Assembly (NCBI GenBank): GCA_902541315.1
Contig: CACBQF010000001.1
Span: forward strand, 124,001-188,000
Length of the DNA: 64,000 nt
Reading direction: 5' to 3'
From: an uncultured Pelagibacteraceae bacterium
GTDB lineage: Bacteria > Pseudomonadota > Alphaproteobacteria > Pelagibacterales > Pelagibacteraceae
In this document: positions 12,185 to 26,487 of the stretch, in pieces
Numbering within the stretch: the stretch's first letter is position 1
Layout of the letters: every line of letters begins with the position of its first letter
Translations under genes and position numbers: made by a program
The notes under the pieces: model-generated
What the model was told of the DNA's origin: nothing
Seen by the model: the letters and a program-made list of their open reading frames with translations, nothing else
Database searches by the model: none

Positions 12185-12712
12185 ATGAAAAATATTTGTG
12201 ACTGGAATAATTGTAAGAATCTAGGTGAATATAAAGCACCTAAAGAAAAAGATAACAGTAAAAAATTCAGAATGTTGTGTTTAAAACATATCAAGGAATT
12301 TAATAAAAATTGGAATTATTTCTCAGGAATGAGTGACAGTCAAGTAACAGACTTTTTAAAATCTGACATGACATGGCATAAGCCCACCCAGAGTTTTAGT
12401 TCTTCAGATAATTTTTTCAAAGTACTATGGAATAACACCTTAAAAGATGATTATGAAAATAGAAAAATTAAAAATGATTATGATTACATGCGTCAATTTA
12501 AATTTGACCACAAAGATATAAAGGCTTTTGAAATATTAGGGTTAAATGTTGGAATGAAATGGGGAGAAATACAGGAAAAATTCAAAGTGCTTGTCAAAAA
12601 ATTTCACCCTGATATGAATTTAGGCAATAAAAAATATGAGGAAAAACTAAAATTAATTACACTAGCTTATACTCAGTTAAAAAACACTTATAGAGAAAAA
12701 ATTGATACCTAA
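12185..12712 (+). CDS. J-domain (DnaJ-like) protein with N-terminal zinc-finger-like segment
   Basis: 175 residues. The C-terminal part is a J domain: [19 protein letters not shown], then the Hsp70-stimulating HPD at 141-143 and the final helix. The N-terminus has C5, C10, C32 and H35 (C-x4-C-x21-C-x2-H), which resembles a small zinc site, followed by the K-x-W-N-Y-F-x-G-M-S segment typical of this alphaproteobacterial family. The ATG at 12185 puts the first cysteine at residue 5. The gene overlaps cobS by 11 bp. A role as co-chaperone for the CobS/CobT AAA+ machine is inference from the coupling. Confidence 0.88.
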
Positions 12713-13676
12713 CTTAGCAATACAACCAGATATAAAAGTTTCAATTAAACAAACTTTTGGAATAGACTCACAAATGGAAGTTGATGCTTTTTCTGAAAAA
12801 AGTGAGTACGTTCCTGAAATAGACAAAAACTATAAATTTGATAGAGATACTACTCTAGCTATCATATCTGGGTTTGCATTTAATAAAAGAGTTTTAGTCC
12901 AAGGTTATCACGGCACAGGTAAATCTACTCATATAGAACAAATTGCTGCAAGGTTAAATTGGCCATGTATTAGAGTAAACTTAGACAGTCATATAAGCAG
13001 AATTGATTTGATAGGAAAGGATGCAATTATTTTAAAAGACGGTAAACAGGTCACAGAATTCAAAGAGGGAATACTTCCATGGTCTATTCAAAATCCTGTA
13101 GCACTAGTTTTTGACGAGTATGACGCTGGCAGACCAGATGTAATGTTTGTTATTCAAAGAGTGCTTGAAGCAGAAGGAAATTTCACACTTCTTGATAAAA
13201 ATAAAGTAATAAAACAAAATAGTTATTTTAGATTATTCGCTACTTCGAATACTATAGGTCTTGGTGACACGAGTGGTCTTTATCATGGCACTCAACAAAT
13301 TAATCAAGGTCAGATGGATAGATGGAACATAGTTACCACATTGAATTATCTTAGTCTTGAAAAAGAAATGGAAATCATTTTAGCTAAAAACAAAAATTTC
13401 AACAACGCTAAAGGTAAAGAAAAAGTCTCAAACATGATCAAGGTGGCTTCATTAACAAGAAAAGGATTTATTTCGGGTGATATATCAACAGTTATGAGTC
13501 CTCGAACAGTCTTACATTGGGCAGAAAATTCAGAAATATTTAAGGATACTGGTTACGCATTTAGAGTAACCTTTTTGAATAAGTGTGATGATTTAGAGAA
13601 GAATATTATTGCCGAATATTATCAAAGATGTTTTGGAGATGAACTACCAGAGTCTCTTGTGAATATTCAAATTTGA
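12702..13676 (+). CDS. cobS: CobS-like AAA+ ATPase (cobaltochelatase small subunit / MoxR type)
   Basis: AAA+ ATPase of 324 residues. In aerobic cobalamin synthesis CobS pairs with CobT to drive cobalt insertion by CobN. Seen here: the CobS-type N-terminus ([11 protein letters not shown]), Walker A GYHGTGKS at 68-75, Walker B VFDEYDAG near 140, sensor segment FATSNTIG, and an arginine finger region. The start is TTG at 12702 inside the J-domain gene; the family N-terminus begins just after it and no ATG fits. The stop overlaps the cobT start. No cobN or other cobalamin gene is in the window, so chelatase function is uncertain and a general metal-insertion or remodelling role is possible. Confidence 0.88.
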
Positions 13677-15481
13677 TGACAAAAAATCATAACGATACAA
13701 ATATTAAGGAAAAATTAAGACAAGCACTTATATCTACTGTAAAAGTTATTTCTGAGGATTTTAGAAAAGATATTGAAATTAAAAACGAAAAAGCCGCTAG
13801 GAAATTTGATTTTATTGATTTAGATAATCTAGTTACAAAAAAAGACTTTCTTAAAGCAAGAGCCACCTCAGATTCTGTAGCATTAAAGAGAAAGTTCTCA
13901 AATGAAAATATCTATAAAAAAAATTTGCCATCAAACTCATCCTGTAAATCACTCTACTCAATTGCTGAAAAAATTCGATATGAGTGTTTGGGGGCAAAAA
14001 TGCTAAAAGGAATAAAAAAAAATTTAGAGGATAACTATAATCAAATCATACATTCAAAAAAAATTGAGCAACCAAAATCTAAAGATGACGTTAATATATC
14101 CGAGGCTTTTGAATTATATATGCTTAAAAAATTTCATGGTATAAAACTTAATCATATTACATCACAAATATTAAGTTTTTGGAAAAAAGATTTTGACAGA
14201 ACGATTGAAGAACATATTGATTTTTTGAAAAATAATTTAAACCATCAAGAAAATTATTCATCCAAATTCTCAGAACTATTAGATAAAATGGATATTTTTC
14301 AGTCAGCAGAAGATGAAATTAATGAAGAAAATCATCAAGATGCACAAAATAATCCTTCAGACGAAAATCAAGATTCAACGGATGAAGACAATAAAGATCA
14401 AAATAAAGATGATATAACTGAAACAAGTTTAGAGTCTGAATACGATATCTCTGAATATAAATTAAATGAAGAAATTCTTGAAACTGATAGTGATCAAAAT
14501 ATTAACGACCAGATAATTCAAAAAAATAGTTTTAAAGATTTAAACATTGATTACAAGATTTATACAAATCAGTTTGATGAAATAATAAAAGCTGAGAATT
14601 TAGAAAATTCAGATGACGCTAGTAAACTTAGAAAAACTCTTAATCAACAATTAATAGGATTTCATGATATTGTGACCAAACTTGCCAATAAATTACAAAG
14701 ACAATTATTAGCGAAACAAAACCGTTCATGGAATTTTGATTTAGAAGAAGGTTTATTAGACAGCTCCAAATTGACTAGAGTAATAATAGATCCATTTAAT
14801 TATTTATCATTTAAAAAAGAGAAAGACTTAGATTTTAAAGATACTATTGTAACTTTGTTGATTGATAATTCAGGATCTATGAGAGGTCGGCCGATAACAA
14901 TAGCAGCTATTTGTGCTGATATTTTATCAAGGACCTTAGAGCGTTGCTCTGTGAAAGTTGAAATTTTAGGATTTACAACAAAAAATTGGAAGGGAGGTCA
15001 AAGTAGGGAATTCTGGAATAAGAATGGAAAAATAAAGTTACCAGGAAGGCTTAATGATTTAAGACACATTATTTATAAAAGTGCCGATGTTCATTGGAGA
15101 CAGGCGAAAAATAATTTAGGTTTAATGTTAAAAGAAGGCTTACTTAAAGAAAATATTGATGGTGAGGCAATATTATGGGCATTCAATAGATTAAAAAAAA
15201 GAAGAGAAGAAAGAAAAATTTTAATGGTCATTTCTGATGGGGCTCCAGTTGATGACTCAACACTCTCAACAAACTCTGGAGACTTTTTAGAAAAACATTT
15301 GAGAAAAGTTGTCAAATTTATAGAAGATAAATCTGATATTGAAATTCTAGCAATTGGTATTGGTCACGATGTATCTCGATATTACAATCGTGCTATTAAA
15401 ATAACCGATGTTAATGAGTTAGGTGATGTAATGGTATCACAATTAAGTTACTTGTTTGATAAAAAAAACAAGCTCAATTAA
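13676..15481 (+). CDS. cobT: CobT-like von Willebrand A protein (cobaltochelatase subunit)
   Basis: 601 residues, close to alphaproteobacterial CobT. The N-terminal ~200 residues are helical. The middle (about 210-290) is strongly acidic and Asn/Gln/Asp-rich, the low-complexity hinge typical of CobT. The C-terminal VWA domain starts near 385 with a MIDAS motif DNSGSM at 397-402, then a [10 protein letters not shown] stretch and [10 protein letters not shown] carrying further MIDAS residues. The ATG at 13676 shares a base with the cobS stop (TGATG). Partner of CobS in an AAA+/VWA machine. The 3' end shares a TTAA with the stop of the convergent regB. Confidence 0.9.
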
Positions 15482-18928: not shown

Positions 18929-19018
18929 TGGCGGAGAGGGCGGGATTCGAACCCGCGATAGAGTGAACCCTATACACGCTTTCCAAGCGTGCGCCTTAAA
19001 CCTCTCGGCCACCTCTCC
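18929..19018 (-). tRNA. tRNA-Ser (anticodon GGA)
   Basis: 90-nt class II tRNA on the minus strand. The acceptor stem pairs GGAGAGG (19012-19018) with CCTCTCC, followed by discriminator G and an encoded CCA (18929-18931). The D-loop contains GGCCGAGAGG, the anticodon GGA is at 18982-18984 within CTTGGAAAG, there is a long variable arm, and the T-loop has GGGTTCGAATCCC. It reads UCC/UCU serine codons. It lies between gyrB and the start of the deoxysugar island, a typical position for an island boundary, although no integrase or repeated tRNA end is seen. Confidence 0.97.
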
Positions 19019-19078: not shown

Positions 19079-19888
19079 ATGAATACTACAGTAATTATAG
19101 TTTCTTATGAAAGTGAACATCTAATTGAACAAAACATAAAATCTTATGATGAAAATACCAAAATCATAGTAATTGAAAATTCAGAAAATTTCTCACTAAA
19201 GAATAAAATTGAAAGAAAGTATAAAAACGTTGAGATAATTTTAAACAAAAATTATGGTTTTGGACAGGCTGCAAATCTTGGTGCAAAATTAACAAAAACT
19301 AAAAATATTCTTTTTTGTAGTCCTGATAATTTTGTAGAAAAAGACTCTATAAATAAACTTGAGAAACTCAGTGAAAAATTCAATGATAAATTTAACATTT
19401 TTATACTTTCGGATGAGAATGATTGTCCAGTGAATGTTGAAAAAATAAAAAAAACTAGAGGCATGTTATGTTTTTTTATAGAAAAAGAAATATTTCTTAA
19501 ACTTTCGGGTTTTGATGAAAAATTTTTTTTATACTACGAAGATGCAGATTTTTTAAGAAGAGCTTTAAAAAAGAAAATTAATATTTATCAAGTACCAATT
19601 AAATATTCTAACAAATTAGGATCACATAATAAAAGATTTAATCATCCTGTTGAGGTAAATAGGAATTGGCATCTTATGTGGTCTAAATTTTACTACAAAA
19701 GAAAATATTACGGTTATATTTACTCTTTTATATCAACATTACCTTATTTAATACGATCATTAATAAGACTAATGATTTACTCAAAAAACCCTACACAAAA
19801 AGAAATATATTTAGCTAGAATTAGTGGATTATATAATTCATATATATTAAAAGAACCTTGGTATCGGCCAAAGATAAATCAAAAATGA
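19079..19888 (+). CDS. Family 2 glycosyltransferase (rhamnosyltransferase-like)
   Basis: GT-A fold glycosyltransferase of 269 residues using a nucleotide-sugar donor. It starts with VIIVSYES, has NYGFGQAANLGAK (the N-x-G-x-A-x-x-x-N segment that binds the donor nucleotide), SPDNF at the acidic metal-binding position, and EDADFLRRA, the acidic catalytic segment typical of rhamnosyltransferase-like GT2 enzymes. There is one weak hydrophobic segment near 215-235. It is the first gene of the island and overlaps rfbB as ATGA, so it is the best candidate for transferring the deoxysugar made by the following genes. Acceptor unknown. Confidence 0.85.
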   Translation: MNTTVIIVSYESEHLIEQNIKSYDENTKIIVIENSENFSLKNKIERKYKNVEIILNKNYGFGQAANLGAKLTKTKNILFCSPDNFVEKDSINKLEKLSEKFNDKFNIFILSDENDCPVNVEKIKKTRGMLCFFIEKEIFLKLSGFDEKFFLYYEDADFLRRALKKKINIYQVPIKYSNKLGSHNKRFNHPVEVNRNWHLMWSKFYYKRKYYGYIYSFISTLPYLIRSLIRLMIYSKNPTQKEIYLARISGLYNSYILKEPWYRPKINQK

Positions 19889-20910
19889 AAAAAATTTTAG
19901 TTACAGGTGGTTCGGGGTTTATAGGTACAAACTTTGTAAATTTAATTTCATCCAAAAATTATAAAATATTAAATATCGATAAAATATCTGAAGTTTCTAC
20001 TCCAGAAAGGTTCAAAATAATTAAATATCCAAAGAAATATTTTTTTATCAAAAATGATCTTAAAAATTATAAAAAAATTTTGGATACTTTAAAAAAATTT
20101 AAACCTGATTTGATAATAAATTTTGCAGCCGAAAGTCATGTTGATAGATCAATAAATGATCCTCTCAATTTTATCAAAAATAATATAGATCTTTCAATAA
20201 ATCTTTTTTTTGCTTACTCTCATTATTTAAAAATTAAGAAAATAAAATTTTTTCAAATTTCTACTGATGAAGTATATGGATCTCTAATTAAAGGATATTC
20301 AAAAGAAACCGATCCATACGATCCTTCATCACCTTATTCTGCTTCAAAGGGTAGCGTGGATCTTATCGCGTCATCATTTAACAGAACCTATAAAACAAAT
20401 ATTAAAATCATCAATCTTTCGAACAATTATGGACCCTATCAATATCCAGAAAAATTTATACCAACTTTAATATTACATTACTTAAAAAATAAACCTGCAC
20501 CTATTTATGGTAAAGGTAAAAATATTAGAGAATGGATACATGTAAAAGATAGTTGTGAGGCTATTTTAAAAACAATAATGTCTAAGAGAAATTTTAAAAA
20601 GATCAATATTGGTTCAAGTTTACGAGTTTCTAATATAGAGATTGCAAATCTCATTTTTAAAATAATGAAGTCAAAAGGATTGACAGACCTTAGTAAAAAA
20701 AAATTTTTAACGACTGTAAGAGACAGACCTGGCCATGACGAAAGATATGCACTTAATACAAGTTTATTTAAAAAAATAATCAATTATAAAATGCAAAAAA
20801 GTTTAAAAGTTGGATTAGAAGATACAATTAATTGGTATCTAAATAACGAAAATTGGTTAAAAAGTACTCACAAAACTTACAACTACAAAAGGCTCGGTTT
20901 AATTGATTAA
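19885..20910 (+). CDS. rfbB: dTDP-glucose 4,6-dehydratase
   Basis: Extended short-chain dehydrogenase (341 residues) that converts dTDP-glucose to dTDP-4-keto-6-deoxyglucose, the branch-point intermediate for deoxysugars. Motifs: GGSGFIGTNF (NAD Rossmann), FAAESHVDRSI, STDEVYG containing the catalytic D-E pair, YSASK (Y-x-x-x-K catalytic pair), NNYGPYQ, and RPGHDERYALN near the end. It starts at ATG 19885 overlapping the GT2 stop. The downstream neighbour rfbA supplies its substrate. Its AT content looks like that of the rest of the island. Confidence 0.94.
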   Translation: MKKILVTGGSGFIGTNFVNLISSKNYKILNIDKISEVSTPERFKIIKYPKKYFFIKNDLKNYKKILDTLKKFKPDLIINFAAESHVDRSINDPLNFIKNNIDLSINLFFAYSHYLKIKKIKFFQISTDEVYGSLIKGYSKETDPYDPSSPYSASKGSVDLIASSFNRTYKTNIKIINLSNNYGPYQYPEKFIPTLILHYLKNKPAPIYGKGKNIREWIHVKDSCEAILKTIMSKRNFKKINIGSSLRVSNIEIANLIFKIMKSKGLTDLSKKKFLTTVRDRPGHDERYALNTSLFKKIINYKMQKSLKVGLEDTINWYLNNENWLKSTHKTYNYKRLGLID

Positions 20911-21769
20911 AAAAGCAATAATATTATGTGGAGGTACAGGTTCAAGAATGTTTCCTGTAACTAAGTCTGTGAATAAACAATTGCTTCCTTTATTCGACAA
21001 ACCAATGTTTTATTATCCACTGTCTTTAATGATGCTTTCTGGAATTAAAGAATTTATTTTCATAATTAATGAAAGACAAGAAGTCAATTTTAAGAAAGCA
21101 TTAGGTGATGAGAAAGATTTAGGTATTAAAATAAAATTTATTGTGCAATCTAAGCCAAGAGGTCTTCCAGATGCATTTATTTTGTCTCAAAAATTTATTC
21201 ATAATGAGTCTGTGGCAATGATACTTGGTGATAATTTTTTTTATGGAAATATGCTATCACCTATTATAAAAAGCTCTTTTAAAAAAACTCTTGGTTGCAA
21301 TATATACCTTTATCCAAGCAATAATACCTCGGCATATGGAGTGGTAGAATTTGACAGAAAAAATAGAATAAAACGTATTGTTGAAAAACCCAAAAAAACT
21401 AATTCAAATTTAATTATTACAGGACTTTACGTCTTCGACAAAAAAGTTTCAGAATATGCAAAAAAACTAAAACCTTCTAAAAGAGGTGAAATAGAAATTG
21501 TTGATTTAATAAATTTTTATAAAAAAAAAAGGAAGTTAAGTGTAGTCAAGCTTGGCCGGGGATCAGCTTGGATGGATGTTGGTAATTTTCACGATCTACA
21601 TAGTGCTAACAATTTTATTCAAAATATTGAAAGTCGACAAAGTTTTAAAATTGGTTGTTTGGAGGAAATTGCCTTAAATAACAAATGGATAAACAAAAAG
21701 AATATTTTGAATAGAATTAGATTTAATAGAAATAGTAGATATTCTCAGTATTTAAAAAATTTAATTTGA
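20903..21769 (+). CDS. rfbA: Glucose-1-phosphate thymidylyltransferase
   Basis: Makes dTDP-glucose from glucose-1-phosphate and dTTP, the first committed step of the island's pathway. It has 288 residues, normal. Signature LCGGTGSRMFPVTKSVNKQL lies at the N-terminus with the catalytic arginine; GDNFFYG supplies the metal aspartate; AYGVVEFD and VEKPKK are also conserved. The start is TTG at 20903, overlapping the end of rfbB by 8 bp; the conserved N-terminus follows at once and no ATG is available before the nucleotide loop. Confidence 0.94.
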   Translation: MIKKAIILCGGTGSRMFPVTKSVNKQLLPLFDKPMFYYPLSLMMLSGIKEFIFIINERQEVNFKKALGDEKDLGIKIKFIVQSKPRGLPDAFILSQKFIHNESVAMILGDNFFYGNMLSPIIKSSFKKTLGCNIYLYPSNNTSAYGVVEFDRKNRIKRIVEKPKKTNSNLIITGLYVFDKKVSEYAKKLKPSKRGEIEIVDLINFYKKKRKLSVVKLGRGSAWMDVGNFHDLHSANNFIQNIESRQSFKIGCLEEIALNNKWINKKNILNRIRFNRNSRYSQYLKNLI

Positions 21770-21774
21770 AATAG

Positions 21775-22251
21775 ATGCTTCCGATAAAATACAAAAGCAA
21801 GTTGTTTAAAGATAAACGTGGATATCTAATAGAGATAACTCCAAAATTAATGATTTCAAAATTTTCTTACAGTATCTTAACAAATTCGAGAAAAAATGTT
21901 TTAAGAGGTATGCATTTTAATAAAAATATGGATGAAGAAAAATTAGTTTATATAATTGACGGTAAAATTTTTGATGTCACAGTAAATTTAAACAAAGGTA
22001 AAGATTTTGGAAAAATTTTTTACCATAATTTAAAAAAAAATGACGTTCTTTTTATACCAAAAGGATTTGCGCATGGATATTCTTGCTTAGATAAATCAAA
22101 TACAGTTCTTTATCTATTAAATAAAAAATACTCAATCAAAAATAATAGTGGATTTATTTGGAATGATAAAAAATTTAAAATTAAATGGAATATAAGAAGA
22201 CCAAATTTATCCAAGAAAGACAAAAATTTAAAAGAATATATCTTATCGTGA
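21775..22251 (+). CDS. rfbC: dTDP-4-keto-6-deoxyhexose epimerase, RmlC family
   Basis: Cupin epimerase of the RmlC/TylK family, acting at C5 or C3 plus C5 of a dTDP-4-keto-6-deoxysugar. It is short (158 residues against ~180-200) because the N-terminal strands are trimmed. Conserved elements remain: DKRGYLIE, LRGMHF with the active-site histidine, GKIFDVTVNL, IPKGFAHGY, VLYLLNKKYS with the tyrosine region, and GFIWND. The site looks intact, so activity is likely; whether it is a 3,5- or 5-epimerase cannot be read by eye. Its TGA overlaps the GTG start of the reductase gene. Confidence 0.85.
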   Translation: MLPIKYKSKLFKDKRGYLIEITPKLMISKFSYSILTNSRKNVLRGMHFNKNMDEEKLVYIIDGKIFDVTVNLNKGKDFGKIFYHNLKKNDVLFIPKGFAHGYSCLDKSNTVLYLLNKKYSIKNNSGFIWNDKKFKIKWNIRRPNLSKKDKNLKEYILS

Positions 22252-22958
22252 AAACAATTCTAATTTCAGGAGGTCAAGGAAAATTTGCACAAGCAATCAA
22301 AAAAGTTAATTCGAAGTACAAAATCATTGCTCCTAACAAGAATGAGATGAATATTAACAATTTGTCCTCGATAGATAATTTCATTAAGAAAAAAAAGATA
22401 GATTATTTTATTCATGCAGCTGCATTTTCAACTCCTATGATTGATCATAAAAAGAAATTAGAAAAAAGTATTTTAACTAATATTGTGGGAACTGCTAATG
22501 TTACTTTGGCATGTATTAGAAAAAAAATTAAACTTATTTACATTTCAACTAATTTTGTTTACCCAGGAAAACAAGGGAACTATACAGAAAAAAATCATTT
22601 AATGCCCTTTAACGAATATGGTTGGTCCAAACTCGGAGGTGAATGTGCATGCCATATTTATAAAAATTCATTAATTCTGAGAGTTTGTATGAATGATGAT
22701 AATTTTCCACACAAATCAGCTTTTAGTAATTATCTAACTTGCTTTATGAAAAAAACTGACGCAGCAAAATTAACTTTAAAACTTCTAAACAAAAAAGGAA
22801 TAATAAATATTGGGGGAAAAATTCAAAGTGCTTACAATTTTGCAAAAGAAATAAATGCAAATGTAAAAAAAATTAAGATAAACAACAAATCTAAGAATTT
22901 GATTGGAATTAACACGAGTATGAATACAAATAAACTCAAAAAGATCATTAACATATGA
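22248..22958 (+). CDS. dTDP-4-keto-deoxyhexose reductase-like SDR (RfbD-like)
   Basis: Short-chain dehydrogenase of 236 residues, shorter than RfbD (~290). The nucleotide-binding start is ISGGQGKFAQA; FIHAAAFST, STNFVYPG and the catalytic pair in YGWSK (Y-x-x-x-K) follow. It most likely reduces the C4 ketone, the last step of the deoxysugar pathway. The start is GTG at 22248 overlapping the previous TGA; the 5' extension is excluded because it would lie within the epimerase gene. It is followed by an ATGA overlap with the methyltransferase gene. Confidence 0.8.
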   Translation: MKTILISGGQGKFAQAIKKVNSKYKIIAPNKNEMNINNLSSIDNFIKKKKIDYFIHAAAFSTPMIDHKKKLEKSILTNIVGTANVTLACIRKKIKLIYISTNFVYPGKQGNYTEKNHLMPFNEYGWSKLGGECACHIYKNSLILRVCMNDDNFPHKSAFSNYLTCFMKKTDAAKLTLKLLNKKGIINIGGKIQSAYNFAKEINANVKKIKINNKSKNLIGINTSMNTNKLKKIINI

Positions 22959-24136
22959 AAAAAATTAGTTTTTTAAATTTGGGAAAACATCCAATAACAA
23001 ACAATTTTTTGAAAACCAATAAACCTAAAAACGAATTTTTTTATAATCTGAAACTGATCTATCATAAAGAAACCAAATTAGTCTCTTTAGATAACTTTGT
23101 ACCACCAAAAAAAATGTTTAATGATAAATATGCTCACAGAGCATCAGCATCCATAACGATGCAAGAAGCATACAAAAATTTAGCTTATAAAATAAAAAAA
23201 AAGTTTAAACCTAAATCAATTTTAGAAATTGGTAGTAATGATGGTGTTTTCATAAAATATTTTTCAAACATAAATAATGTAGGGGTTGAGCCTTGTAAAA
23301 ATTTGGCAGATCTAACCTCAAAAATGAAAATTGAAACTTATGACAAATTTTGGACATTTCAATTATCAAATAAAATTTTAAGTAAACATGGAAAATTTGA
23401 TATTATCTATTCCGCTAACACAATTAGCCATATTCATAATTTAAATGAGACTTTTAAAGCTATAGAAAATTCACTTAATTCCAATGGAATTTTCATTCTT
23501 GAGGATCCATCATTATTAAAGTCTCTTCAAAAATTATCTTATGATCAATTTTATGATGAACATGCCTATGTATTTTCAATAACTGCACTAAAAAATATTA
23601 CAAAACAAAGTGGTTTAGAAGTATTTAATGTTGAAGAACTTAAAACTCATGGTGGCTCAAACAGAGTGTATTTTAAAAAAGTTAATAACAAAACAATTAA
23701 AATTTCGAATACTGTAAAAAAACATTTATTAAAAGAAAAAAATTTTGGAATGAATAAATTACAAACATATCAAATTTTTGCCAAAAAAGTTTTGAAATCA
23801 AGAAAAAATCTGATAAAAATTTTCCAAAAACTAAAAAAAGAGAAAAAAAACATAATAGGATATGGTGCTACCTACAAATCAAGTACAGTCCTAAATTTTT
23901 GTAAGATTGATAAAAAATTTATAAAATATTTTTTAGATACTACCCCAACAAAAGCTGGTAAATTTACCCCCGGTACTCACATCCCTATAAAAAAATATAA
24001 CGGTATTCCAAGTAACGTCGACTATGCTTTTTTGGGAGCATGGAATTTTAAGGATGAAATATTTAAAAAGGAAAAAAAATTTATTAATAGAGGTGGGAGA
24101 TTTATTACTCATGTCCCCTCCCCAAAAATTTTATGA
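22955..24136 (+). CDS. Sugar C-methyltransferase (TylC3/NovU-like)
   Basis: SAM-dependent methyltransferase of 393 residues with the three-part build of deoxysugar C-3 methyltransferases. The N-terminal domain retains LGKHPITNNFL but lacks every zinc-binding cysteine (first Cys at 114). SAM motif I EIGSNDGVF is at 91-99. The active-site segment FYDEHAYVFS has E202-H203 at the position of the catalytic Glu-His pair. THGGSNR at 231-237 and the C-terminal GYGATYKSSTVLNF and FTPGTHIPI motifs are well kept. Relatives methylate C3 of dTDP-4-keto-2,6-dideoxyhexoses. It overlaps both neighbours as ATGA, so it is an integral part of the pathway. Confidence 0.85.
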   Translation: MKKISFLNLGKHPITNNFLKTNKPKNEFFYNLKLIYHKETKLVSLDNFVPPKKMFNDKYAHRASASITMQEAYKNLAYKIKKKFKPKSILEIGSNDGVFIKYFSNINNVGVEPCKNLADLTSKMKIETYDKFWTFQLSNKILSKHGKFDIIYSANTISHIHNLNETFKAIENSLNSNGIFILEDPSLLKSLQKLSYDQFYDEHAYVFSITALKNITKQSGLEVFNVEELKTHGGSNRVYFKKVNNKTIKISNTVKKHLLKEKNFGMNKLQTYQIFAKKVLKSRKNLIKIFQKLKKEKKNIIGYGATYKSSTVLNFCKIDKKFIKYFLDTTPTKAGKFTPGTHIPIKKYNGIPSNVDYAFLGAWNFKDEIFKKEKKFINRGGRFITHVPSPKIL

Positions 24137-24840
24137 AAATTAAAAAAAACGAGATACTTAAACTAAGAAGTGAATTATCTGGTAACTATAAATCCCTTAA
24201 TTCAATTAAAGATATCAAGAGTTGGTATAGAAATATAATAAAAAAATCTAAAATAAAAATAAAAACCATACCTCTTACTAAATGTAATAATTGGAAAATA
24301 AATACTAAAGGACAAATGATACACACTTCTGGCTCATTTTATAAAGTAGAGGGAATAAGAGTGATTAAAAGTTTCAAAAGAGAAGTGAATAAAGGTTGGG
24401 ATCAACCAATGTTCACAGAGCCTGGCTATGATGGTGGAATATTAGGCCTTTTGAAAAAGGATATAAACAAATCACCGCACTATCTAATTAATGCAAAATT
24501 TGAACCTGGTAACTATAAATTTATTCAATTAAGCCCTACGGTTCAAGCTACGTTTAGCAACATCAAGAGATCTCATGGAGGCAAAGAGGTAAAATATTTA
24601 AAATATTTTAAATATCCAAAAAAAAATAATTGCAAAGTCATCTTTAAACAGTGGGTGTCTGAAGAAGGAGGAAGACTTAAAAATAAGAGAAATCTTGGAA
24701 TTCTGGTTGAACACGTTGGAAAAAGTGAGGTCAGAATTGGATCTGACTTTAAATGGATTACTTTGAAACAGATTAAAGAATTAATTTTAGAAAATGCAAT
24801 TGTAAATCCTCATTTAAGAACCTTGGTTTCTTTTATATAA
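24133..24840 (+). CDS. NDP-hexose 2,3-dehydratase, single-repeat form
   Basis: Member of the NDP-hexose 2,3-dehydratase family (TylX3/EvaA-like), which removes the C2 hydroxyl of dTDP-4-keto-6-deoxyglucose. Conserved blocks: GWDQPMFTEPGYDGGILGLL, FEPGNYKFIQLSPTVQATFSN and YLKYF. Known enzymes are ~460-480 residues made of two similar halves; this one has 235 residues and only one. It begins as ATGA within the methyltransferase end and finishes as TAATG with the next gene, so it is not a truncated relic at a rearrangement edge. It may act as a homodimer. Activity is unproven. Confidence 0.82.
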   Translation: MKIKKNEILKLRSELSGNYKSLNSIKDIKSWYRNIIKKSKIKIKTIPLTKCNNWKINTKGQMIHTSGSFYKVEGIRVIKSFKREVNKGWDQPMFTEPGYDGGILGLLKKDINKSPHYLINAKFEPGNYKFIQLSPTVQATFSNIKRSHGGKEVKYLKYFKYPKKNNCKVIFKQWVSEEGGRLKNKRNLGILVEHVGKSEVRIGSDFKWITLKQIKELILENAIVNPHLRTLVSFI

Positions 24841-25790
24841 TGTACAAACTTGCAATATGGTCTTTTAGTAATCATTTTCAAAATAAAGTTTTTCCAAGTA
24901 TTAAAGATAACAAAAATATTAAGATAAAATATATCTTAACTAAAAAAATTAATAAAAATAAAAATTTTAAAAATGTGAAATGGTTAAAAAATAAAGATGA
25001 GTTAAAATCAAAAAAAAATATAGATTTTGTTTATATTTCCTCAAGAAACTCTGATCATTTCAAAAATATCAAATTTGCATTACAAAACAAAATCAATGTC
25101 ATATGTGAAAAACCAATTTGTTTAAAAACTTCTCAATTAAGACGATTAGTAAAAATTTCAAAAATAAATAAAGTCAGATTTTATGAGATTATACAATATA
25201 AACATCATCCACTATTTTTAAAATTAAAGACAATTTTGAAAAAAAAACTCATTGGTGATATCAAAAAAGTGGAATCAGAATTCAAAATACCATTAAAAGA
25301 AAAGGATAATTTCCGTTTTTCAGAGAAAATGGGAGGTGGTGCAATAAATGATGTTGGATTTTACCCTTTATCAATAATGTTTACTTTATTTAACTCAAAA
25401 AAAATAAATATTTTAAAAAAAAAAATTATAAAAGAAAATAAATTAGATATTAAAGGAAATTTAACTGCTGAAAACGAAAATAAAGTTCTTTTTAAATTAG
25501 CATGGGGTTTCAAGTCATTGTATAAGAACTATATTACAATTATCGGTGCAAATGGTAAAATAAAAGTTAAATTTATTTTTTCAAAAAAAATAATTCAAAA
25601 TGCCGAAATAAAATTTTTACGCACCAAAAACAAAATTTTAAAAATTAAAAAAGCCAATCAAATTAATTTAGCATTTAATGACATTCTTAGATCGGATTTA
25701 AATTATTATAGGGATAATTTAAATTTAAGTTTTTCAATATTAAAAACAATTGAAGTCCTTAAAAAAAAACAGAATGTAATTATATATTAA
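24840..25790 (+). CDS. Gfo/Idh/MocA-family oxidoreductase (probable 3-ketoreductase)
   Basis: 316-residue NAD(P)-dependent oxidoreductase. The Rossmann domain has a diverged glycine loop, then YISSRNSDHF and the family hallmark CEKPICL with the EKP lysine; KHHPLF and GGGAINDVGFYPLS mark the C-terminal catalytic domain. In dideoxysugar pathways the enzyme acting directly after the 2,3-dehydratase is a 3-ketoreductase of this family, which fits its position as the next gene (one-base overlap). Its 3' end overlaps the convergent fkbM-like gene by 11 bp. Function inferred from context. Confidence 0.82.
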   Translation: MYKLAIWSFSNHFQNKVFPSIKDNKNIKIKYILTKKINKNKNFKNVKWLKNKDELKSKKNIDFVYISSRNSDHFKNIKFALQNKINVICEKPICLKTSQLRRLVKISKINKVRFYEIIQYKHHPLFLKLKTILKKKLIGDIKKVESEFKIPLKEKDNFRFSEKMGGGAINDVGFYPLSIMFTLFNSKKINILKKKIIKENKLDIKGNLTAENENKVLFKLAWGFKSLYKNYITIIGANGKIKVKFIFSKKIIQNAEIKFLRTKNKILKIKKANQINLAFNDILRSDLNYYRDNLNLSFSILKTIEVLKKKQNVIIY

Positions 25791-26487
25791 TAAGATCAAA
25801 AAACTTATTAACACTACTACTTTTTGTAAAAAACATCGTAACTCCAATTATATTAATTATTTGGTAATTTTTTTCATTCATTAAATTTATTATTATTTTT
25901 TTATTTTCACTATGTAAATCAAAACTATTATCTTCAACTGAAATCAATTGTGGTTTAATAACATCGAATTTAATACTTTGTATAATATCAATTTCGTTTC
26001 CCTCAGTATCTATATTGAGATAATCACATTGAGTAACATTTTTCTTTTTTAAAAGATCGTTAAGTGTAAAAGCATTAACTTTAATTTCTTTTTGATGATT
26101 ATTTCTTTTTATAAGTGAATTTTGTTGGTTTATTTCAGAATTTTGATAATAAAGTGTTTCTCCACTAAAATTTGTTATAGCACAATTTACATTGAGATCA
26201 TTCGGTCTTGCAATTTTAAACAATTCGATAGAGTCTTCACTTAAATCTATATTCAATCCTCTCCATCCTTTTTGAAAAAGTAAAAAGGTCAAAGAACCTT
26301 TAAAAGGATGATAAGCTCCTATATCAATATAAAAACCAGATTTTAAGTTCTTAAATACACGATTTATAAAGATATCCTCAGCAAATTCTCCATAATGAAA
26401 ATTAGGTTTTTTATTTTTATAAATTTTTTGAATTTTATAAATCCAATTTAAGATTAAATTTTTTTTAATTACAGATTTTATATCCAT
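25780..26487 (-). CDS. FkbM-family methyltransferase
   Basis: SAM-dependent methyltransferase of 235 residues. FkbM signatures are GFYIDIGAYHPFKGSLT (SAM motif I) near residues 50-68, GLNIDLSEDSI, and DYLNIDTEGNE, the acidic post-motif. Such proteins often O-methylate sugars in glycolipids or polysaccharides. It faces the deoxysugar operon and ends the island, 25 bp upstream of lepA on the same strand, so it may be co-transcribed with the translation genes. The substrate is unknown; a sugar hydroxyl of the neighbouring pathway's product is plausible. Confidence 0.85.
   Translation of the reverse strand: MDIKSVIKKNLILNWIYKIQKIYKNKKPNFHYGEFAEDIFINRVFKNLKSGFYIDIGAYHPFKGSLTFLLFQKGWRGLNIDLSEDSIELFKIARPNDLNVNCAITNFSGETLYYQNSEINQQNSLIKRNNHQKEIKVNAFTLNDLLKKKNVTQCDYLNIDTEGNEIDIIQSIKFDVIKPQLISVEDNSFDLHSENKKIIINLMNEKNYQIINIIGVTMFFTKSSSVNKFFDLINI

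Follow-up and report, generated by a model that had tools for sequence, protein, structure and literature searches.

L-mycarose is made in the producers of tylosin and erythromycin through 2,3-dehydration, 3-ketoreduction, C3-methylation, epimerisation and 4-ketoreduction, and in this established pathway the product of 2,3-dehydration is a diketone that is passed to the 3-ketoreductase. EvaA, the TDP-4-keto-6-deoxyglucose 2,3-dehydratase of Amycolatopsis orientalis (4j7g/4j7h), is the only well-characterised 2,3-dehydratase according to excerpts of a 2022 review, which describe a dimer with two domains in each chain, with pocket A as the active site, where E139 and E190 are essential, and pocket B as an inactive remnant of duplication (PMC8987622). 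Variable envelope-glycan loci are described for SAR11 bacteria, where excerpts of a genome study present hypervariable region 2 (HVR2) as a variable glycan island (PMC2217521). The DNA analysed here, referred to as the window, is a stretch of 64,000 nucleotides from an uncultured Pelagibacteraceae bacterium (genome G000, contig C1, positions 124001-188000; assembly of 1.03 Mb in 35 contigs, 83.8% complete). Between gyrB and lepA it carries what is probably a self-contained SAR11 nucleotide-sugar cassette, in which a 2,6-dideoxy-3-C-methylhexose would be made with the help of a homodimeric 2,3-dehydratase and transferred to a surface glycan by a family 2 glycosyltransferase (GT2). The cassette displays the same step classes as the L-mycarose pathway of the tylosin and erythromycin producers, but it resides in a streamlined Gram-negative bacterium and in a glycan slot instead of a polyketide cluster, and it uses a Gfo/Idh reductase and a dehydratase of half the size. 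Its parts are known and well conserved; the host and the place are new, and the half-size architecture of the dehydratase is an uncharacterised one.

Gene content and conservation of the cassette

Eight plus-strand genes span positions 19079-25790, with an FkbM gene converging on them from the minus strand. The left flank is formed by gyrB and tRNA-Ser(GGA) and the right flank by lepA, pheT and pheS (names by recognition, with identities to relatives computed). The features are the following:

18929-19018, minus strand: tRNA-Ser(GGA), landmark of the variable slot (ARAGORN)
19079-19888, plus strand: GT2-family glycosyltransferase, first cassette gene (PF10111, PF00535)
19885-20910, plus strand: RmlB, dTDP-glucose 4,6-dehydratase (ATG start; TIGR01181)
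20903-21769, plus strand: RmlA, glucose-1-phosphate thymidylyltransferase (TTG start; TIGR01207)
21775-22251, plus strand: RmlC-like 3,5- or 5-epimerase (PF00908)
22248-22958, plus strand: RmlD-like short-chain dehydrogenase/reductase (SDR), presumed 4-ketoreductase (GTG start; PF04321)
22955-24136, plus strand: sugar C3-methyltransferase of TcaB9/TylC3 type, without the N-terminal cysteine pattern (PF08484)
24133-24840, plus strand: single-domain NDP-hexose 2,3-dehydratase, EvaA fold, half length (PF03559)
24840-25790, plus strand: Gfo/Idh/MocA reductase, presumed 3-ketoreductase (PF01408, PF22725)
25780-26487, minus strand: FkbM-family methyltransferase, convergent accessory gene (PF05050 and TIGR01444, both above cut-off)

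The nine genes, in the order and on the strands given by the initial annotation, were recovered with open reading frames (ORFs), Pfam and NCBIfam, and none of the nine proteins lacks a Pfam match above the gathering cut-off. Gene starts were refined by reading the junction DNA, which moved RmlB to ATG 19885, RmlA to TTG 20903 and the RmlD-like gene to GTG 22248. The ATGA-type overlaps of the initial annotation are likewise present, as ATGA or GTGA at 19885, 22248, 22955 and 24133, while the remaining junctions consist of an 8-nt overlap between RmlB and RmlA, a 5-nt gap between RmlA and RmlC and a TAATG at 24838. A promoter scan returned 60 promoter-like sites against 55.8 expected. Terminator-like sites numbered 6 against 1.7 expected (sd 1.6); every one of them lies on the minus strand within plus-strand genes, and thus they mark no operon end.

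At class level, every step type for a 2,6-dideoxy-3-C-methylhexose is encoded in this one operon. RmlA and RmlB would generate dTDP-4-keto-6-deoxyglucose, from which the single-domain dehydratase would remove the C2 hydroxyl to leave a 3,4-diketo-2,6-dideoxy sugar. C3 would be reduced by the Gfo/Idh enzyme, whose gene directly follows that of the dehydratase, an S-adenosylmethionine-dependent methyltransferase would place a methyl group on C3, the RmlC-like enzyme would epimerise C5 and/or C3, and the RmlD-like SDR would reduce C4 before GT2 attaches the 2,6-dideoxy-3-C-methylhexose to a surface glycan. The order of these reactions is borrowed from the actinomycete pathways. The predicted sugar class is well supported by sequence, and the complete mycarose-type set proposed in the initial annotation stands as far as the step classes are concerned. 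The narrower name L-mycarose does not follow, the stereochemistry at C3, C4 and C5 not being fixed by the evidence here, and 'mycarose-class' should be preferred. Among the matches listed in the open-licence literature, no paper on mycarose-type sugars in Pelagibacter was found.

The source genome is SAR11, a streamlined ocean bacterium as the initial annotation held, and among the named contigs found, Pelagibacteraceae AG-337-G11 (L033, the same contig as L022) is the closest, with LepA 99% identical and cassette proteins 92-96% identical. The comparison across relatives that the initial annotation recommended reveals the cassette in eight named SAR11 loci besides the window (L033-L040). L033, L035, L036, L037 and L040 each have the full set of eight genes in unchanged order, and there, as in the window, the cassette is flanked by gyrB and lepA; L034, L038 and L039 are cut by contig ends and show lepA, gyrB and neither flank, respectively. 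L038 comes from G023, in which the contig with the cassette ends after the dehydratase and the lepA contig ends inside a Gfo/Idh gene 55% identical to that of the window. The AG- isolate names of the eight loci presumably denote single cells, and together with the 83.8% completeness of the window's genome this gives absences little weight.

Purifying selection acts on the cassette genes, the ratio of nonsynonymous to synonymous divergence (dN/dS) of the window against L033 being 0.06-0.19 for the eight cassette genes, with the dehydratase at 0.19, and 0.14 for FkbM, 0.05 for gyrB and 0.01 for lepA. Thus the Pfam matches, the gene order recurring in SAR11 and the low dN/dS argue that the gene set is not a product of chance. 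A recent import of the cassette was considered and rejected: amino-acid identity of the cassette tracks that of gyrB, lepA and pheT (six genomes; Spearman 0.85, a descriptive value from 15 non-independent pairs), and synonymous divergence (dS) of the cassette genes (0.16-0.29) is near that of gyrB (0.25), though below that of lepA (0.39). FkbM faces the cassette as first described but was rejected as a pathway member, being present in 2 of the 8 cassette genomes in which its place is visible (the window and L033; L039 is cut).

The single-domain 2,3-dehydratase

The dehydratase comprises 235 residues in one domain, compared with 471 in EvaA, and matches PF03559 (Hexose_dehydrat) with 184.9 bits over positions 3-202 of 203 (gathering score 25). 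EvaA is its sole match among solved structures (4j7g, 1.4e-51) and both EvaA halves are hit. An AlphaFold2 model built from 43 single-domain sequences has a mean pLDDT of 92.0 and superposes on EvaA residues 16-246 with a Z-score of 18.6 and a root-mean-square deviation of 2.5 A over 220 residues, the next structural family being the Nudix hydrolases at Z 9.4. E139 and E190 of EvaA align with E124 and E177 of the window protein. Thus the enzyme resembles EvaA in its predicted fold, in both glutamates, in its Hexose_dehydrat domain and in its location within a deoxysugar operon. In contrast, EvaA consists of two fused domains with one pocket inactive (PMC8987622, in excerpts). The two fused Hexose_dehydrat repeats that define the EvaA/TylX3 class are missing from the window protein, which groups with single-domain forms.

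PF03559 occurs in 9 of 200 genomes searched, the window's own included; these comprise the window and five further single-domain forms, one contig-cut (G104) and two two-domain forms (G002, G053). A wider sample was collected from genome contigs, for which the query was an alignment of six dehydratases from the SAR11 order, so that the sample favours single-domain forms, the scan patterns having come from single-domain proteins. The scan confirmed 109 relatives, of which the best 80 were kept; seven loci were dropped as duplicates (same genome or identical score), and five (L075, L093, L095, L096, L110), with no dehydratase domain in their ORF lists, stayed outside the domain set. With the other loci added, single-domain proteins number 49 in this set, counting the window's, and two-domain proteins 29, and three Nitrospirota loci have an A and a B gene side by side; L028, cut by a contig end, is of unsure single-domain status, and L041 and L053 have long N-terminal extensions. 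The Nitrospirota pairs (L087:7800-9415, L090:7827-9380, L105:5447-6999) place an N-half-like beside a C-half-like dehydratase gene, as if EvaA were split into two subunits. Hosts of the single-domain form include SAR11, Actinomarina, SAR116, gammaproteobacteria, sphingomonads, Gemmatimonadota, Poseidoniales, a Woesearchaeote and others, and the form is also encoded on three IMG/VR contigs of the set.

The similarity to EvaA would suit a secondarily shortened two-domain enzyme, acting as a monomer through its catalytic half only: the structural match falls on EvaA residues 16-246, the N-half, and the score to that half is twice the score to the C-half (118 versus 59 bits). The maximum-likelihood tree of 113 domains argues against such shortening, because a single branch, with support 99/99 and present in 100% of 200 bootstrap trees, separates the single-domain proteins from all halves, although the tree is unrooted and so also compatible with an ancient truncation. 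The N-halves fall into more than one group (4 changes). Single-domain forms are also encoded in bacteria with 4-Mb contigs and in archaea, and all 49 carry R83, which is C-half-like. Secondary shortening is, on balance, an unlikely origin for the enzyme.

The residues conserved in the single-domain proteins, 30 columns of which are at least 95% conserved, point to a different relation between the two architectures. Both glutamates are found in all 49, and so are P125, S142, H148, G150 and K185, which occur in 29/29 N-halves and in 0 to 5 of 29 C-halves. R83 displays the reverse distribution in the two-domain enzymes, with 29/29 C-halves and 3/29 (MAFFT) or 4/29 (hmmalign) N-halves. E84 was tried as a second C-half mark and set aside as aligner-dependent (N-halves 3/29 with MAFFT versus 13/29 with hmmalign), so that R83 alone was used. 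At these six positions the three A genes are N-half-like and the three B genes C-half-like. Thus the single-domain proteins hold the union of residues that are mostly divided between the halves of two-domain enzymes, and the window protein combines, in one domain, the N-half set with the C-half arginine.

We infer that this division may reflect complementary loss after duplication, which would in turn predict a homodimer with sites shared between chains. The dehydratase is most likely a symmetric homodimer, each chain of which would provide what the EvaA-type halves divide, and it may resemble the unduplicated ancestor of EvaA. A bolder scheme, which we offer tentatively and hold to be possible at less than even chances, takes the single-domain form as the unduplicated dehydratase itself, a symmetric homodimer with two interface-built sites. 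The catalytic set would have been retained in the N-half, or gene A, and an arginine that reaches the partner in the C-half, or gene B; the Nitrospirota A/B pairs and the EvaA-type fusions would descend from it, with the single-domain form as the version widespread in the sea and used for envelope glycans. No recognised paper on a single-domain 2,3-dehydratase was found among the open-licence matches listed, '2,3-dehydratase' being poorly searchable.

The gene neighbourhood supports the dehydratase function, because a Gfo/Idh gene adjoins the dehydratase gene in most single-domain loci. The next same-strand gene is Gfo/Idh in 37 of 47 evaluable single-domain loci, compared with 8 of 29 two-domain loci and with 59 Gfo/Idh matches among all 1042 other ORFs of these loci, adjacent ones included; the loci are not independent. 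Exceptions include L143 and L145, where a DegT aminotransferase follows the dehydratase, pointing to possible amino sugars. L143:4815-7809, on a 13-kb IMG/VR contig, carries in a row a C-methyltransferase without cysteine pairs, a single-domain dehydratase and a DegT aminotransferase, suggesting a C-methyl amino dideoxysugar. Similarly, a SAR11-order genome (L021:8319-13183, the contig of L051) has an operon of RmlB, RmlA, DegT aminotransferase, single-domain dehydratase and Gfo/Idh, which probably makes an amino dideoxysugar. Two-domain dehydratases lie beside a C-methyltransferase in two genomes of one genus (L024:9578-10849, L025:11537-12790); no end branch of the tree is longer than that of the L025 C-half, and the methyltransferase match close to L024 crosses stop codons.

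Methyltransferase and accompanying sugar enzymes

The C-methyltransferase, METHYLTRANSFERASE (22955-24136), retains the YDEH stretch and the Methyltransf_13/23/14 architecture, and matches PF08484 with 159 bits. Its phmmer matches among solved structures include 5t64, 3ndi and 4rv9 (E 8.5e-69 to 4.8e-53), dominated by the sugar 3-C-methyltransferases 5t64/5t6b and TcaB9, with the D-mycarose methyltransferase 4rv9 lower. The alignment to TcaB9, 5t64 and 4rv9 is near full length and shares the YDEH stretch. The N-terminal domain, which in TylC3/TcaB9-type methyltransferases has structural zinc cysteines, is still recognised (PF08421, 36.9 bits), although the cysteine pattern of those enzymes is missing from the window protein and the aligned cassette homologues, the CHACG stretch of 5t64 aligning to YHKET. 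The loss looks specific to the cassette methyltransferase group, because more distant methyltransferases in other slot alleles (L165, L168, L172) begin with a cysteine pair. We take 5t64 to be KijD1 and 3rbv, a sugar 3-ketoreductase, to be KijD10; the best-matching methyltransferase and ketoreductase presumably belong to tetronitrose-type pathways.

3rbv is the top solved relative of the Gfo/Idh protein, which shares its Gfo/Idh/MocA family and its EKP and GxYP stretches, but the similarity is low (63.5 bits, E 2.7e-16) and an uncharacterised oxidoreductase is a close second at 62.6 bits. The RmlC-like epimerase matches PF00908 with 117.1 bits, and its H47, K56, Y113 and D149, positions presumed to have a catalytic role in RmlC, are in register with residues of solved RmlC chains. 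PF04321 is matched by the RmlD-like SDR with 87.9 bits over residues 5-149 only, and the YGWSK motif is found in all rows aligned. GT2, which is presumed to transfer the finished deoxysugar, is above cut-off for PF10111 (45.8 bits) and PF00535 (36.1 bits), has a sub-threshold match to the rhamnosyltransferase family TIGR01556, and is 92% identical in L033 and 49-59% identical in five other cassette loci. RmlA finds weak and partial matches only in the rest of the genome as assembled (83.8% complete), so that dTDP-sugar synthesis seems to depend on the cassette.

Several observations weigh against the proposed pathway. RmlB (TIGR01181, 333.8 bits, nearly full length), RmlA (TIGR01207, 330.5 bits, full length) and the RmlC-like epimerase (TIGR01221, 116.1 bits) stay below the NCBIfam equivalog cut-offs of 365.1, 360.65 and 155.75, respectively, and the RmlD-like SDR is short. 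The N-terminal cysteine pair is found in none of the 14 aligned methyltransferase rows, which include two pairs that are one gene fetched twice. The slot allele of G003 contains a C-methyltransferase homologue without a 2,3-dehydratase, and thus methylation is not tied to 2-deoxygenation in this SAR11 slot group. This allele fits a product that keeps its C2 oxygen, a C-methyl 6-deoxy sugar, the half-length homologue then being devoid of 2,3-dehydratase activity and, for example, binding or isomerising nucleotide sugars. Virenose is, in the excerpted source, a Gram-negative C3-methyl 6-deoxy sugar formed without 2-deoxygenation (PMC3539893), and a biochemical record of the single-domain form was not found among the open-licence matches listed. 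A sugar retaining its C2 oxygen is nevertheless quite unlikely here, given both glutamates and the five N-half positions in all 49 single-domain proteins, the purifying selection on the dehydratase and the Gfo/Idh gene directly next to it in most loci.

The lepA-gyrB slot and the proposed surface glycan

A LepA search of 61 genomes, from which the best 30 loci were taken (own included), reveals that close relatives differ in their gene content at this orthologous site, the pattern that defines a replacement flexible genomic island. The slot holds the cassette in 2 loci (G000, G023), other genes in 21 and tRNA-Ser only in 5 (G004, G010, G024, G027, G031), and is cut off in 2 (G030, G033). Eighteen of the 21 loci with other genes were fetched (L157-L174), and in 15 of these gyrB is included, lying between about 1.4 and 11.9 kb away from lepA; tRNA-Ser(GGA) is present in all 25 loci checked. 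Ten proteins from other slot alleles were compared with Pfam; one has no match and nine match GT17, DUF4422 (two), RmlD-like, nucleotidyl transferase (RmlA-like), RmlC-like, SDR, TIM-barrel and GT9 families. The slot shares with HVR2 and other SAR11 replacement flexible genomic islands the exchange of envelope-glycan genes at one site between close relatives. In contrast, HVR2 measures 48 kb with rRNA-gene flanks, whereas the slot is small and located at tRNA-Ser(GGA) between lepA and gyrB. In the excerpts available, the gene tables of HVR1-4, which were compared by content and not by map position, do not describe the lepA-gyrB slot (PMC2217521). Similarly, no description of it was found among the matches listed in the open-licence literature, subscription papers lying outside the search, and it is possibly an undescribed flexible island.

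The initial annotation had placed the sugar on a surface glycan and called this unexpected in a streamlined ocean bacterium. The surprise does not hold, since variable glycan islands are known in SAR11, as HVR2 exemplifies (PMC2217521, in excerpts). The surface destination is strengthened by the exchange of glycan genes that SAR11 genomes show at this locus, although we still only infer it. A surface role of the cassette sugar is plausible, as pelagimyophages carry glycan genes themselves (PMC7029224, in excerpts). Unlike the sugar class, the acceptor and the effect on phage adsorption or grazing that the initial annotation suggested are not supported by sequence. Judging by their names, the closest homologues of solved structure presumably belong to antibiotic pathways, which would suit a sugar that decorates a small secreted molecule, a secondary metabolite. 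However, the largest ORF listed in window positions 1-32196 has 801 residues and none there is of synthase size, other genomes have glycan genes (GT17, GT9, Rml-type) in the slot, and to the left of the window the contig contains a block with twelve more epimerase-family matches (G000:C1:9902-65702), which is probably the main envelope-glycan island of the genome. A secreted product is thus very improbable, and transfer to a surface glycan is preferred.

A phage origin was also considered and set aside: no match was found among 50,697 phage records. The single-domain dehydratase lies on 4 IMG/VR contigs, and 2 of 9 ORFs from three of them match any PHROG (an endonuclease and a sialyltransferase), viral status being the label of that collection. 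Elsewhere in the window, at 12702-15481, CobS-like and CobT-like cobaltochelatase genes lie side by side (PF12556, PF11775, PF06213), which is odd for SAR11, a group that is not known to make cobalamin.

Few cells in the sea are as abundant as SAR11 bacteria, whose surfaces have, to our knowledge, seen little direct chemical study. A conserved C-methyl dideoxysugar cassette in a slot that close relatives fill differently offers a concrete, testable surface polymorphism, and a one-domain 2,3-dehydratase with residues that two-domain enzymes mostly divide between their halves is a simple system for a little-characterised enzyme class.

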